IMG/VR virus record: IMGVR_UViG_3300025646_000202
Location: 1 to 31,336 of that record
DNA from: a virus
Direction: 5' to 3' (one strand)
Length of the DNA: 31,336 nucleotides
The translations under genes were made by a program, and so were the position numbers. Positions 4,376 to 16,641 of this stretch are shown here, in pieces; position 1 is the first letter of the stretch, and the number at the start of each line of letters is the position of its first letter. The notes below the pieces were generated by a model. It searched no databases. It worked only from the letters and a program-made list of their open reading frames with translations, and was not told the DNA's origin.

Positions 4376-5604
4376 AACATGACGTTGCAAAGATCCTCAC
4401 GGAACAAGAATTATATGGATGGTACTTTGATGAGCCTGCTGCACGGGAACTTGCACAAGCTCTCTATTCCGAGCTTGCTGATCTTAATCAGTTACTACGG
4501 GAGCGGTACCCTTACGTTGCTGGACCGGAGTTTACTCCTAAGCGACCTAACAAAACACAAGGATACATCACCGGAGCTACTTTCACTAGACTGAAGGAGT
4601 TCAATCCTACAAGCCGTGAGCACATTGCTTGGGTGATGCGGACACACCATAACTGGGAACCTGAGAAAACTACCAACACTGGTAAAGCAGTGATTGATGA
4701 GACAGTTCTCAAAGACATAGGCACAGAGGAAGCTCTGCAGTTCTTATGTTGCTTTGAGACAACCAAAAAGCTTGGTATGTTGTCTGAAGGCAACAACGCT
4801 TGGCTGAAACTAGTACGAAACAATCGTATCCATCACCACTGTTCTGTAGCTACGAACACATTTAGATGTGCTCACAGAAACCCAAATCTTGCACAGGTAC
4901 CAAGTGATCTTGAATTTAGAAAACTATTCCGTGCTAGTCCTAACCATGTCATGGTTGGTGCTGATCTCGCAGGCATTGAACTTAGAATGCTCGCACACTA
5001 TCTGGCTCGATATGATGGAGGCAGGTACGGAGACGTACTTCTCAACGGTGACATACACCAAGAGAATGCGGACAAGATTGGAATCTCACGCCGTCTAGTG
5101 AAGACTGTAACCTATGCGTTTTTGTATGGAGCAGGTGATCAAAAAATCGGACTATCTTACGATGCACAATTATCTCCCAAGGATGCCAAAGCTAAAGGTG
5201 CCGAGATACGTCAAGCTTACATGGATGCAATTCCTGGACTTGAGAAACTGGTTACTGCGGTTAAGTCCAAGGCGGAATCTGGTTACATCAACTTGTGTGA
5301 CGGTCGCCGCTGCGCTGTTGATGGTAGCCACAAAGCCCTTAACTACCTTCTCCAAGGGAGCGCAGGTATTGTAGCAAAACAATGGATGGTTCACACTCAT
5401 AATGTAATCAAACAGTGTGAAATCAAAGCACATCAACTAGCATTCATCCATGATGAGTTGCAGTTTGAATGCCCACCTGAATATGCAGACACACTATCAT
5501 CAGCCCTCACTATCTCTGCCCTTACAGCAGGAGAACACTACAACCTCAGAGCCCCAATCGCAGCAGAAGCCAAGGTTGGAAACAACTGGGCAGAAGTCCA
5601 CTAA
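4336..5604 (+). CDS. DNA polymerase, family A polymerase domain (split gene, part 2)
   Basis: This carries the thumb, palm and fingers of a T7 gp5-like polymerase. Motif A is VGADLAGIELRMLAHYLARY (Asp210), motif B is KTVTYAFLYGAGDQKIG (Lys256, Tyr260) and motif C is FIHDELQ (Asp373); all catalytic residues are present. Homology to T7 begins near residue 11 (ITLEHDVAKIL), directly continuing the exonuclease ORF. The only plausible start before that is TTG at 4336; the first in-frame ATG is far inside the domain. The segment matching the T7 thioredoxin-binding insertion is much shortened, with roughly 35 residues between RYPYVAG and FNPTS against about 76-85 in T7. The ORF overlaps part 1 by 40 bases and the endonuclease gene at its 3' end. 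Confidence 0.93.
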   Translation: METLSTIPEWITLEHDVAKILTEQELYGWYFDEPAARELAQALYSELADLNQLLRERYPYVAGPEFTPKRPNKTQGYITGATFTRLKEFNPTSREHIAWVMRTHHNWEPEKTTNTGKAVIDETVLKDIGTEEALQFLCCFETTKKLGMLSEGNNAWLKLVRNNRIHHHCSVATNTFRCAHRNPNLAQVPSDLEFRKLFRASPNHVMVGADLAGIELRMLAHYLARYDGGRYGDVLLNGDIHQENADKIGISRRLVKTVTYAFLYGAGDQKIGLSYDAQLSPKDAKAKGAEIRQAYMDAIPGLEKLVTAVKSKAESGYINLCDGRRCAVDGSHKALNYLLQGSAGIVAKQWMVHTHNVIKQCEIKAHQLAFIHDELQFECPPEYADTLSSALTISALTAGEHYNLRAPIAAEAKVGNNWAEVH

Positions 5605-5944
5605 AGTTTGTAGAGTTTGTAACCAGGAGAAACCTTATTCTGAGTTTTATAAAAAAAGGGGTAATTTAGATCGTCATGATACCCGCTGTAAACAGTGTAA
5701 AAAAGAGTACGATATAGCTTTGAATAAAGTTAAAGCTACAGCACCGCCTAAACCATCTGCATGTGCCTGTTGCAACAAACAAACTCCGAATCTTGTAGTA
5801 GACCACTGTCACAAATCAAATGTTTTTAGAGGTTGGATTTGTGTACCGTGTAATCTTTCCATTGGTAGACTAGGTGACAACGTTGAGGGAGTACAAAAAG
5901 CACTAACTTATTTAATTAACGCATTTAATGGCAACCAAATCTAA
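5576..5944 (+). CDS. Endonuclease VII-like HNH nuclease
   Basis: A His-Me/HNH-superfamily nuclease resembling phage recombination endonuclease VII and free-standing homing endonucleases. Numbered from the TTG at 5576 (122 aa) it has a first zinc ribbon (Cys12, Cys15, Cys38, Cys41) and then the endonuclease VII core: CACC (Cys63, Cys66), VVDHCH (Asp76, His77, His79), a C-x2-C-N motif (Cys89, Cys92, Asn93) and IGRLGDN. No ATG lies between the polymerase stop and the first zinc ribbon. The frame extends back to ATG 5483 or 5450 inside the polymerase gene, but that sequence codes for polymerase in another frame and looks low-complexity as protein. The start is therefore uncertain. The gene is AT-rich with poly-A runs compared with its neighbours, which suggests recent arrival. 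Confidence 0.85.
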   Translation: METTGQKSTKVCRVCNQEKPYSEFYKKRGNLDRHDTRCKQCKKEYDIALNKVKATAPPKPSACACCNKQTPNLVVDHCHKSNVFRGWICVPCNLSIGRLGDNVEGVQKALTYLINAFNGNQI

Positions 5945-13647: not shown

Positions 13648-13968
13648 ATTAAAGTTCTTCGCTTTATTATTATGATTCCTGTTCTAACTACTCTATCGGT
13701 GATCGCTAGCTGGTATGGTCCTGGTTTCCATGGGAACCTTACTGCTAACGGTGAACGATATAATCAAAATGCCCTTACTGCTGCGCACAAGACACTACCC
13801 TTTGGAACACGACTTCGTGTATGTTTCAAACGGTGTGCCGTTGTTCGGGTAAATGATCGTGGTCCTTACATTCATGGTAGGAACATTGATCTAAGTAAAG
13901 GTGCGGCTGATGCTATCGGTCTCACTGGTTCTGGAGTTGGACGAGTCAAAGTAACACGTCTTAACTAA
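13648..13968 (+). CDS. RlpA-like double-psi beta-barrel protein, probable AUU start, signal peptide
   Basis: A full RlpA-type domain, a fold whose bacterial members bind or cleave denuded peptidoglycan as lytic transglycosylases. Seen: [33 protein letters not shown] and [22 protein letters not shown]. The residues matching the proposed RlpA catalytic set are Glu36, His47 and Asp70 in the 106-aa form. The first ATG, at 13672, has no ribosome-binding site. An in-frame ATT at 13648 lies 8 bases after a good AGGAG (13635-13639) and adds KVLRFII, turning the N-terminus into a convincing signal peptide (basic Lys2 and Arg5, hydrophobic core, likely cleavage after Ala20). I therefore prefer the ATT start. 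It could help lysis or wall remodelling; its place between hli and psbA is odd for a lysis gene. Two cysteines (59, 63) could form a disulfide. Confidence 0.82.
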
Positions 13969-13973
13969 CTACA

Positions 13974-15029
13974 ATGGTTACTATTGCACAACCCCAAACT
14001 AAAAATCTTTGGGACGACTTCTGCGATTGGGTAACCAGTACAGATAACCGTCTTTATGTCGGCTGGTTTGGAACACTGATGATTCCGTGTCTCCTTGCTG
14101 CAGCCATTTGCTTTATCATCGCCTTCATTGCTGCACCTCCGGTGGACATTGATGGCATTCGTGAGCCTGTTGCTGGCTCTCTTCTCTATGGAAACAACAT
14201 CATATCGGGAGCCGTCGTTCCGAGCAGCAATGCCATCGGACTACACTTCTACCCAATTTGGGAAGCTAATTCACTTGATGAATGGCTCTACAACGGCGGT
14301 CCTTTCCAGCTTACCGTCTTCCACTTCCTCATTGGCATCTATGCTTACATGGGACGAGAGTGGGAACTTAGCTATCGACTAGGAATGAGGCCGTGGATTT
14401 GTGTCGCATATTCAGCTCCGGTGGCGGCAGCTACCGCTGTATTCCTTGTCTATCCCTTTGGCCAAGGAAGCTTCTCTGATGCTATGCCTTTGGGTATCTC
14501 GGGAACCTTCAACTACATGCTGGTGTTCCAGGCTGAACATAACATTCTTATGCACCCCTTCCATATGCTGGGAGTTGCAGGTGTTTTTGGTGGGTCTTTA
14601 TTTAGCGCGATGCACGGCAGTTTGGTTACGTCTAGTCTTGTTCGTGAAACGACTGAGGAAGTATCTCAGAACTATGGATACAAGTTTGGTCAAGAAGAGG
14701 AGACGTATAACATCGTTGCCGCTCATGGCTATTTTGGACGTTTGATCTTCCAGTATGCATCTTTCAATAATAGCCGTAGCCTTCATTTCTTCCTTGCTGC
14801 TTGGCCTGTTATTGGTATCTGGTTTGCTGCTTTGGGCGTTTCGACCATGGCTTTTAATCTTAATGGTTTCAACTTTAACCAGAGCCTTCTCGATTCTCAA
14901 GGGCAAGTGATTAACACTTGGGCTGATGTACTCAACCGTGCTAACCTTGGATTTGAAGTAATGCACGAACGTAATGCTCATAACTTCCCTCTTGACCTTG
15001 CTACACACACCGCTCCGGTGATCGGCTAA
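13974..15029 (+). CDS. psbA: Photosystem II reaction-centre protein D1
   Basis: A 351-aa D1 protein, host-derived, that replaces photodamaged host D1 so that photosynthetic electron flow continues during infection. Five hydrophobic helices and the conserved blocks are present: [56 protein letters not shown] (TyrZ and Asp170 region), [15 protein letters not shown] (Glu189, His190, His198 region), [13 protein letters not shown] (Ser264 and His272 region) and [13 protein letters not shown] (Mn-cluster ligands). The residue matching D1 position 130 is Glu129, the form linked to high-light D1 variants. The C-terminal extension after the processing Ala is only 8 residues (THTAPVIG), shorter than in most cyanobacterial D1. 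The reading frame is uninterrupted, with no intron. It begins 5 bases after the RlpA-like gene and overlaps the next gene by TAATG. Confidence 0.99.
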
Positions 15030-15178
15030 TGGCTAAGCGTGGTCTCTATGCGAACATCCACGCCAAGCGTAAGCGTATCGCTGCTGGTAGTGGTGAGAAG
15101 ATGAGAAAGGCTGGAGCCAAAGGTGCTCCAACTGCTGCTCAATTTAAGAAGGCAGCTAAGACTGCTAAGAAGAAGTAA
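15029..15178 (+). CDS. 49-aa basic protein, common in marine phages
   Basis: A small Lys/Ala-rich protein beginning [17 protein letters not shown], with GEKMRKAGAKGAPTA in the middle and a Lys-rich end. It starts on the TAATG overlap with psbA. I recall very similar GLYANIHAKRKRI...GEKMRKxGAKGAPT proteins in many marine cyanophages, so it is real and conserved, but its function is unknown to me. Strong positive charge suggests binding to nucleic acid. Its TAA stop is directly followed, in the same frame and without another stop, by the riboswitch region and the 34-aa peptide gene. Confidence 0.85.
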   Translation: MAKRGLYANIHAKRKRIAAGSGEKMRKAGAKGAPTAAQFKKAAKTAKKK

Positions 15179-15186
15179 GCAACGTA

Positions 15187-15236
15187 CGTTCATCCCTTTC
15201 GGGACGCATACCGCCTGAGCATGGAACGGGGCTCAG
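15187..15236 (+). promoter_or_regulatory. Glutamine-II (Downstream-peptide) riboswitch candidate
   Basis: An H-type pseudoknot can be drawn directly from the bases. P1 is CGTTC 15187-15191 with GAACG 15224-15228. A hairpin inside its loop is TCCC 15193-15196 with GGGA 15201-15204 (loop TTTC). A pseudoknot helix is CTGAGC 15215-15220 with GCTCAG 15231-15236. The conserved-looking parts CGTTCATCC, GGACGCAT and ATGGAACGG agree with my memory of the Downstream-peptide RNA family, shown to bind L-glutamine and known from marine picocyanobacteria and cyanophage, where it precedes short peptide genes. A short peptide gene indeed starts 17 bases downstream. It would couple this peptide's expression to glutamine, a nitrogen-status signal. 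The family assignment is from memory and not a covariance-model hit. Confidence 0.8.
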
Positions 15237-15253
15237 ACACTTCTTTCCTTACA

Positions 15254-15358
15254 ATGACACAAGTCGAATTGGATGCCCGTGTACGGGAGCAGAAAGCTGC
15301 TGACAAGGAGCAGAAGCTGAAGTATCGCGGCGTTGCTTACACACCTAAACAAAAATAA
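15254..15358 (+). CDS. 34-aa peptide downstream of the riboswitch
   Basis: A short charged peptide, MTQVELDARVREQKAADKEQ followed by KLKYRGVAYTPKQK. The first two-thirds look like one amphipathic, charged helix; the end carries a YRGVAY motif reminiscent of small cyanobacterial proteins with YRGVxY. Glutamine-II riboswitches typically precede such 17-100 aa peptides, which is strong contextual support. No Shine-Dalgarno is obvious before ATG 15254. An in-frame ATG at 15221, inside the aptamer, would add 11 residues, and the frame is open back to the stop of the 49-aa gene at 15178. The likely role is a small regulator of host nitrogen or carbon metabolism, but this is inference. Confidence 0.75.
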   Translation: MTQVELDARVREQKAADKEQKLKYRGVAYTPKQK

Positions 15359-15627
15359 ACTTTAATAAGGAATCTCTTATTAAAGGTTCCCCCTCCTATC
15401 TTTAATAGTGGGGCTGAAATCCACAGAGATGTGGTTGGAGTCAGGCACCTCAGAGTCGGACCTGGCTCCTATTGACTATTGGCCGGTTACGACCGACACC
15501 CTTTAGTCATGACGGTCTGGAGAGACAGACAATTTTCAAAAAACTTGAATGGCAATGAATACTGAAAATTCACTGCAATTCCTATGCGCATAGGGAGACT
15601 GTATAAAACAACTCTCTCTTTTCTATT
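15359..15627 (+). promoter_or_regulatory. Structured non-coding leader of the major capsid gene
   Basis: 269 bases without a credible gene, packed with possible hairpins: a perfect 10-bp inverted repeat (15360-15369 with 15376-15385); CCCC/GGGG plus CTAT/ATAG (15390-15413); CCACA-GAGA-TGTGG (15421-15434); a 9-bp stem with one G-U (15437-15445 with 15461-15469); CGGT-TACG-ACCG (15484-15495); GTCTG/CAGAC (15515-15530); AATTTTCA/TGAAAATT (15531-15538 with 15563-15570); and a 14-bp palindrome (15581-15594). CCAC at 15421-15424 can pair either with GTGG 15408-15411 or within its own hairpin, so alternative folds exist. In T7 the same position holds the strongest late promoter and an RNase III site. 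I cannot assign a known RNA family. Confidence 0.65.
15581..15598 (+). promoter_or_regulatory. Palindrome with T7-like initiation sequence (candidate phage late promoter)
   Basis: The perfect 14-bp palindrome CCTATGCGCATAGG is followed by GAGAC, giving CATAGGGAGAC. T7 class III promoters end in TATAGGGAGA with transcription starting at GGGAGA, so this may be the phage RNA polymerase start for the capsid operon. It lies about 35 bases before the capsid GTG start. The rest of the T7 promoter is not recognisable and I saw no second copy in the window. Confidence 0.35.
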
Positions 15628-16641
15628 GTGGCTAACACTCTTGTTACTTCGGTAGGCTCGATTAACAATACGAGTTCTACCCCTCTTGCTCTTGGTACTG
15701 CTTATGATACCAAGTATGCAACTTATCTGAAACTGTTTACTGGCGAAATGATGAAGGCGTATGAAAGCGCCACTATCGCTAAAGGTACTGTGATGAGCCG
15801 CTCTCTGCGTGGGGGCAAATCTGCACAGTTCATTTTCACTGGTCGTATGACGGCGGCTTATCATGAGCCCGGCACTCCGATCCTTGGTACTAACAGCCCT
15901 CCGGTGGCTGAGAAGACCATCGTGATGGATGATCTTCTGATCAGCTCTGCTTTCGTGTATGATCTGGATGAAACGCTTGCACATTATAGCCTGCGTTCTG
16001 AGATCTCTGCTAAGATCGGTCATGCTCTGGCTGAGGCTTATGATAAGAAGATCTTCCGTCAGATCGCTAAAGCTGCTCGTGAAGCTCACCCGATCACTGC
16101 TGCTCCTGGTCCTGAGCCCGGCGGTAGTGTGATCAACATTGGTGCTAATAAAGAGTATGATGCTCAAGCACTGGTTGATGCTTTCTTTGAAGCTGCCTCT
16201 ATTCTCGATGAGAAGAACCTGCCTAAGCAAGGTCGTACCGCTGTGCTGTCCCCGCGTCAGTATTACGCTCTGATCTCTCAGGTTGATTCTAACATCCTGA
16301 ACCGTGACTTTGGTGCTAGCCAAGGTAACCTGAACTCTGGCGAAGGTCTCTATGAGATCGCTGGTATCTCCATCAAGCGTTCCAACAACCTGCCTTTCCT
16401 GGCTGGTAACGTGGCTGCTGTGAATGGTGAGAACAACGACTACTCCGGTAACTTCACCAACCACTGCGGTCTGATCTATCAGAAGGATGCCGTGGGTGTG
16501 GTTGAGGCTATTGGTCCTCAGGTTCAAACCACTGGTTCTGATGTTCGTACCATGTACCAAGGTGATATCATCGTTGGTCGTCTGGCCATGGGTGCTGGTA
16601 CCCTGAACCCCGCTGCTGCTATTGAGCTGCAAAATGTCTGA
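15628..16641 (+). CDS. Major capsid protein, T7 gp10-like
   Basis: A 337-aa HK97-fold capsid protein. It matches cyanopodovirus capsids: ANTLVTSVGSIN, ALGTAYDTKYATYLKLFTGE, SAQFIFTGRMTAAYHEPGTP, EKTIVMDDLLISSAFVYDLD, GRTAVLSPRQYYALI and a C-terminal YQGDIIVGRLAMGAG. The start is GTG at 15628; an in-frame TAA at 15604-15606 rules out anything further upstream, and no ATG fits. No Shine-Dalgarno lies near the GTG; the preceding bases are a pyrimidine run (ACTCTCTCTTTTCTATT). This is unusual for the most abundant virion protein. Codon choice is strongly biased, as in highly expressed genes. The reading frame is intact, with no sign of the capsid-gene intron reported in one related phage. Confidence 0.96.
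   Translation: MANTLVTSVGSINNTSSTPLALGTAYDTKYATYLKLFTGEMMKAYESATIAKGTVMSRSLRGGKSAQFIFTGRMTAAYHEPGTPILGTNSPPVAEKTIVMDDLLISSAFVYDLDETLAHYSLRSEISAKIGHALAEAYDKKIFRQIAKAAREAHPITAAPGPEPGGSVINIGANKEYDAQALVDAFFEAASILDEKNLPKQGRTAVLSPRQYYALISQVDSNILNRDFGASQGNLNSGEGLYEIAGISIKRSNNLPFLAGNVAAVNGENNDYSGNFTNHCGLIYQKDAVGVVEAIGPQVQTTGSDVRTMYQGDIIVGRLAMGAGTLNPAAAIELQNV

Follow-up and report, generated by a model that had tools for sequence, protein, structure and literature searches.

The viral DNA analysed here (the window: 31,336 nucleotides, IMG/VR record IMGVR_UViG_3300025646_000202) comes from a T7-like cyanophage related to S-CBP4, its nearest match (84% over 5.8 kb), and carries a glutamine-II aptamer followed by the gene for a 34-aa peptide. 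Most probably the cassette is a riboswitch of the ON type that responds to L-glutamine and lies in the 5′ leader of a YRGxxY gene, the product of which would act in trans in nitrogen metabolism. A scan of the whole window against Rfam matched the Downstream-peptide family (RF01704) at 15184-15236 on the plus strand with 48.1 bits (E 6.3e-9), around 15 bits above the gathering cut-off of 33 bits, and this was the sole gathering-level match. Under R1, a model built from phage aptamers whose E-values are rough, the same element scored 73.6 bits. The preliminary description had proposed this identity and suggested the covariance-model search that now bears it out; the three helices it had drawn are exact in their coordinates on reading the sequence. 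The element is a glutamine-II aptamer.

The window RNA is a pseudoknot, since the CGTTC/GAACG helix and the CTGAGC/GCTCAG helix cross (Table 1). In the numbering of the crystallised RNA (PMC6698751), C1, G2, G18, C19, A33, C39, G40, G41 and G42 correspond to 15187, 15188, 15206, 15207, 15221, 15227, 15228, 15229 and 15230, and all are intact in the window. These nucleotides provide the ligand contacts, the base triple (G18), the long-range pair (C19 with G41) and the transition pair of the crystal structure (PMC6698751). Glutamine binding and activation are established for the class in the literature (PMC6316151, PMC6698751), and by analogy the window copy would be expected to bind glutamine as well.

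Table 1. Features of the cassette and its neighbours in the window.
Feature	Position	Strand	Evidence or remark
psbA (photosystem II D1), upstream, inconstant neighbour	13974..15029	+	phrog_182, E 2e-193
Glutamine-II (type-2 glutamine riboswitch) aptamer	15184..15236	+	RF01704 48.1 bits; R1 73.6 bits
Ligand-binding pseudoknot helix, 5′ strand CGUUC	15187..15191	+	pairs with 15224-15228 GAACG; C1-C5 with G36-G40 of PMC6698751
Inner hairpin UCCC-UUUC-GGGA	15193..15204	+	15193-15196 with 15201-15204; P2 here is P1 in PMC6698751
CGCA joining strand	15205..15208	+	aligned to the crystallised RNA of PMC6698751
Outer helix, 5′ strand CUGAGC	15215..15220	+	pairs with 15231-15236 GCUCAG; P3 here is P2 in PMC6698751
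Core AUGGAACGGG	15221..15230	+	A15221:G15230 (A33:G42), C15227 (C39), G15228 (G40), G15229 (G41)
In-frame AUG within the aptamer, would give 45 aa	15221..15253	+	probably not the start
34-aa peptide gene MTQVELDARVREQKAADKEQKLKYRGVAYTPKQK, YRGxxY (DUF4278-like) micropeptide	15254..15358	+	DUF4278 E 0.0016; phrog_5049 E 1e-4
Structured leader, peptide gene to capsid gene	15359..15627	+	folding z-score -3.45 versus shuffles
Major capsid protein gene, constant downstream neighbour	15628..16641	+	phrog_267, E 1.6e-82

An aptamer-core pattern scan of IMG/VR found at least 120 contigs, and the fractions derived from it describe samples of viral metagenome contigs that carry no host. Among 57 distinct phage aptamers, 97.9% of the paired cells could pair and 12 pairs showed changes on both sides, a result equalled by none of 500 shuffles. 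Both-sided changes were present in all four pairs of the inner hairpin and in all eight pairs of the outer pseudoknot helix (15215-15220/15231-15236), the one in which compensatory changes among related phages had been looked to for support in the preliminary description. Because helix formation had served as a filter for this alignment, the count was repeated on 98 distinct loci selected solely by the downstream peptide motif, and the same compensatory pattern was obtained. The CGUUC/GAACG helix lies outside the covariation test, since the search pattern fixed it and it is therefore present but invariant by design; the CGCA joining strand is likewise invariant in alignment A1, where the pattern fixed it.

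The short peptide gene expected behind the aptamer is indeed present as a 34-aa open reading frame (15254-15358), opening with ATG and bearing KYRGVAY, the YRGxxY core of DUF4278, behind a glutamine riboswitch. The peptide scores 19.2 bits against DUF4278 (PF14105; E 0.0016), below the curated Pfam cut-off of 25.3 bits, and for this reason we call it DUF4278-like rather than a member of the family. An open reading frame with the motif [YFW]RGxx[YFW], starting no more than 60 nt from the aptamer, was found in 101 of the 112 listed viral pattern matches with enough sequence; the same test at randomly chosen positions of the retrieved loci succeeded in 57 of 7290 cases (0.8%). Across the 114 loci with a YRG reading frame the peptide measures 13-60 aa, and a GGAG-type ribosome site precedes it in 78; no such site is found in the window leader or in its clade. 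Pooled pN/pS is 0.44-0.45 in the window peptide's own family and 0.44-0.48 across the 34-aa and 17-aa families, with the Y, R and G codons varying, so that the amino acid sequence of the peptide is under selection. The 34-aa reading frame is a real coding gene. The AUG at 15221, which would give the 45-aa product, was rejected as a general start because only 28 of the 114 loci have it in an open frame shared with the peptide, about what chance would give.

Every one of the 26 Prochlorococcus or Synechococcus aptamer loci found with the phage model precedes a YRG protein of two or three motifs, and two of these proteins that were scanned pass the DUF4278 cut-off with 30-33 bits. According to a review, type-2 glutamine riboswitches of marine picocyanobacteria control DUF4278 proteins, PMM1846 among them, with a relationship to the N-terminal part of IF17, a factor that inactivates glutamine synthetase; the same review reports a Prochlorococcus DP element at which glutamine activates expression (PMC6316151). 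Judged by motif and position, then, the phage peptide is no orphan; it is related, in minimal form, to the DUF4278 proteins under host glutamine riboswitches. The order, aptamer and then small YRGxxY protein, is the same in both, although the motif occurs two or three times in the host proteins and once in nearly all phage peptides, which go down to 13 aa and stand before the capsid gene. With IF17 and IF7 the phage peptide shares just the DUF4278-like part, which has been described as dispensable for inhibition by IF17 (PMC6316151). Relative to RF01704 as described (Weinberg 2010, PMC2864571; structure, PMC6698751), the window shares the helices, the pocket nucleotides and the placement before a short reading frame; the phage copies stand apart as a subtype in sequence, most of them with a CGCAUGA joining strand, and the joining strand of the host copies is plainly different. 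Under the phage-built model the phage copies score about 53-80 bits and the host copies 25-38, a gap to be expected from a model of that origin. The CGCAUGA strand also suggested that the crystallised 'Prochlorococcus RS01' aptamer might be phage-derived, an idea we dropped as it has no match among the viral contigs and phage records.

Considering these data together, the scheme that we favour is as follows. When glutamine in the host is high, the pseudoknot would close on glutamine, and an ample nitrogen supply would thus turn on synthesis of the 34-aa micropeptide. With its single motif, this peptide is a reduced relative of the host proteins, which have two or three. Because it is such a relative under the same riboswitch class, its action is most likely in trans, on the targets of the host DUF4278 proteins, perhaps in competition with the host protein. 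We infer the direction of switching, its level (translation versus transcription) and what the peptide acts on. Some observations count against this scheme: the window leader has no GGAG-type ribosome site, the peptide stays under the DUF4278 cut-off, and folding predictions revealed no expression platform. Over 102 loci, forcing the aptamer helices left the predicted accessibility of the start nearly unchanged (0.405 vs 0.402), and a clamp drawn around the window aptamer is no more stable than its shuffles (z -0.83). No sigma-70-like promoter was found for the cassette.

A different role for the cassette is suggested by its surroundings. The next large gene is that for the major capsid protein, which lies downstream in 92 of the 96 testable loci among the matches listed, also where psbA is missing, at a median of 374 nt from the aptamer start, and the leader between folds better than shuffles (z -3.45). 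The cassette could thus be mainly a cis-acting capsid leader, in which the glutamine sensor, together with passage of ribosomes through the short reading frame, tunes output of the most abundant virion protein to the supply of amino-nitrogen and the peptide is of minor importance. We regard this as unlikely: the peptide residues are conserved while synonymous sites vary, in host relatives this aptamer is likewise followed by the motif, the peptide stop is separated from the capsid start by 269 nt with a structure of its own, and the cassette is missing from most capsid relatives. In relatives the capsid leader contains a hairpin like GGGGGGTTCGATTCCCCCC, which resembles a tRNA T arm, and in one contig (L134) it holds a complete tRNA-Trp.

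The preliminary description had put forward joint control of photosynthesis and nitrogen metabolism, the riboswitch coupling psbA to nitrogen status. Although psbA does precede the cassette in the window, as it does in many isolates, a riboswitch in a 5′ leader acts on what is downstream, and psbA, with a 49-aa gene in between, is outside the output of this leader. Furthermore, the cassette occurs without adjoining psbA in S-TIP28, S-RIP1 and the L145 group. Since the capsid gene follows in 92/96 loci and psbA is missing in several relatives, we reject this reading, which now seems highly improbable. That the cassette is a leftover of host regulatory DNA, decayed or neutral, that no longer does anything is scarcely credible. 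Many close relatives lack it, as for a passing insertion, but over many phage genera its helices change in a compensatory way, its pocket is complete and its peptide is held by purifying selection.

The favoured riboswitch and its trans-acting peptide would be widespread among T7-like cyanophages. An aptamer at gathering level with a YRG peptide is present in the isolates P-SSP7, P-SSP2, P-SSP3, NATL2A-133, 9515-10a, P-GSP1, S-RIP1, S-RIP2, KBS-P-1A, S-TIP28, S-TIP37, S-CBP1 and S-CBP4 and in the siphovirus S-CBS4, and is unannotated in most of these records. Its occurrence in a siphovirus means that the cassette is not limited to T7-like phages; in S-CBS4 (L337, HQ698895.1, 1017-1159) the aptamer sits directly 3′ of a tRNA-Thr gene. 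Among 80 listed capsid-gene relatives the cassette is absent from the majority, including many close ones. All 17 loci with the aptamer have the peptide, and those without the aptamer also lack the peptide, the exceptions being L180 and L184, in which the contig starts 8-9 nt upstream of the peptide; five more are too short upstream to judge. Aptamer and peptide are gained and lost as one unit. A search of the accessible literature found no paper on a glutamine riboswitch in T7-like cyanophages. Phage-borne glutamine riboswitches have been reported from T4-like cyanophages (PMC9964418, PMC9602691) and also from the methylophage Melnitz, where, unlike the window cassette, the riboswitch was reported with a tmRNA gene (PMC9004378). 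Matches of 24 nt in T4-like phages were set aside as instances of the same cassette, being a glnA-like element under the Rfam cut-offs. In the T4-like phage Syn33 (L322, GU071108.1, 1499-1549 and 1762-1929) a glnA-like element, below both cut-offs, stands ahead of a two-motif 55-aa protein (phrog_545); this aptamer-like element falls within the annotated start of Syn33_196, which is probably placed too early.

Of the two elaborations of the cassette, one contains a gene within the aptamer itself. In S-SBP1 (L336, MT424636.1, 432-760) and 80 contigs (L460-L539) a gene of 51-55 aa fills the hairpin loop of the glutamine-II aptamer, and this arrangement is present in all 80 SSBP1_gp32 relatives listed in IMG/VR. 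The insert spans 158-168 nt between CGUUC and CGCA, with its AUG in the 5′ strand of the hairpin and its stop in or just after the CGCA joining strand (within CGCAUGA in 70 of the 81); a YRG peptide follows the aptamer downstream. In 50 distinct loci the hairpin forms 279 pairs across the nested gene, compared with a mean of 233 and a maximum of 260 for shuffles, and a pN/pS of 0.18 indicates strong purifying selection. With the AUG in a hairpin strand and the stop at the joining strand, translation must therefore melt the aptamer and folding of the aptamer must hide the start. This is the architecture as read in the sequences; we suggest tentatively, with somewhat less than even confidence, that a single glutamine aptamer may switch the nested gene and the YRG peptide in opposite directions, the reciprocal switching being our extrapolation from it. 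What the window carries is the simple version of this cassette. Weak homologues of the nested gene (~30% identity) occur in the two T4-like phages inspected, S-SM2 and S-RS29, annotated as ordinary genes by uvsY or a baseplate gene. Our literature search, with key subscription papers beyond reach, found no description of a gene nested in the aptamer, nor of the variant pocket that follows.

The second elaboration concerns the ligand pocket. In 11 distinct sequences, including the isolate S-CBP3, the aptamer reads CGUUCA-hairpin-CGGG...CUGGAACGC, so that the C19:G41 pair is flipped to G:C, and A33 is changed to C in all but one intermediate (L378). The variant loci are L122 (2687-2741), L123, L133, L357, L367, L368 (S-CBP3), L369, L386, L404, L416, L418 and L448; L122, L123 and L133 are the window's closest cassette-bearing capsid relatives among those listed. 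For most of them an outer helix with compensatory variation can be drawn and a YRG peptide follows, while the five variant sequences compared with Rfam all fell under both glutamine cut-offs. This variant raises the possibility of an altered ligand.

These findings suggest direct, RNA-based nitrogen sensing as a common trait of T7-like cyanophages and point to a family of viral peptides of 13-60 aa that is mostly unannotated. Because host and phage share sensor and motif, the phage peptide would be informative both on the role of DUF4278 in picocyanobacteria and on the ways in which phages sense or redirect nitrogen metabolism in the host. S-CBP1, S-CBP4 and the pocket variant S-CBP3 are cultured on one host, Synechococcus CB0101, so the cassette is testable now.

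Some neighbouring reading frames in the window also deserve mention. A lysine-rich 49-aa frame (15029-15178; phrog_16028, of unknown function) shares one base with the stop codon of psbA and finishes shortly 5′ of the aptamer; it is found in relatives with and without the cassette. The frame at 13672-13968 sits between a high-light-inducible gene and psbA, and the region matching it in the S-CBP4 record is annotated with a rare lipoprotein A gene, which is unusual among phage photosynthesis genes. Directly 3′ of the DNA polymerase frame, the frame at 5450-5944 has a CxxC and a DHCH motif by eye, typical of HNH/endonuclease VII.
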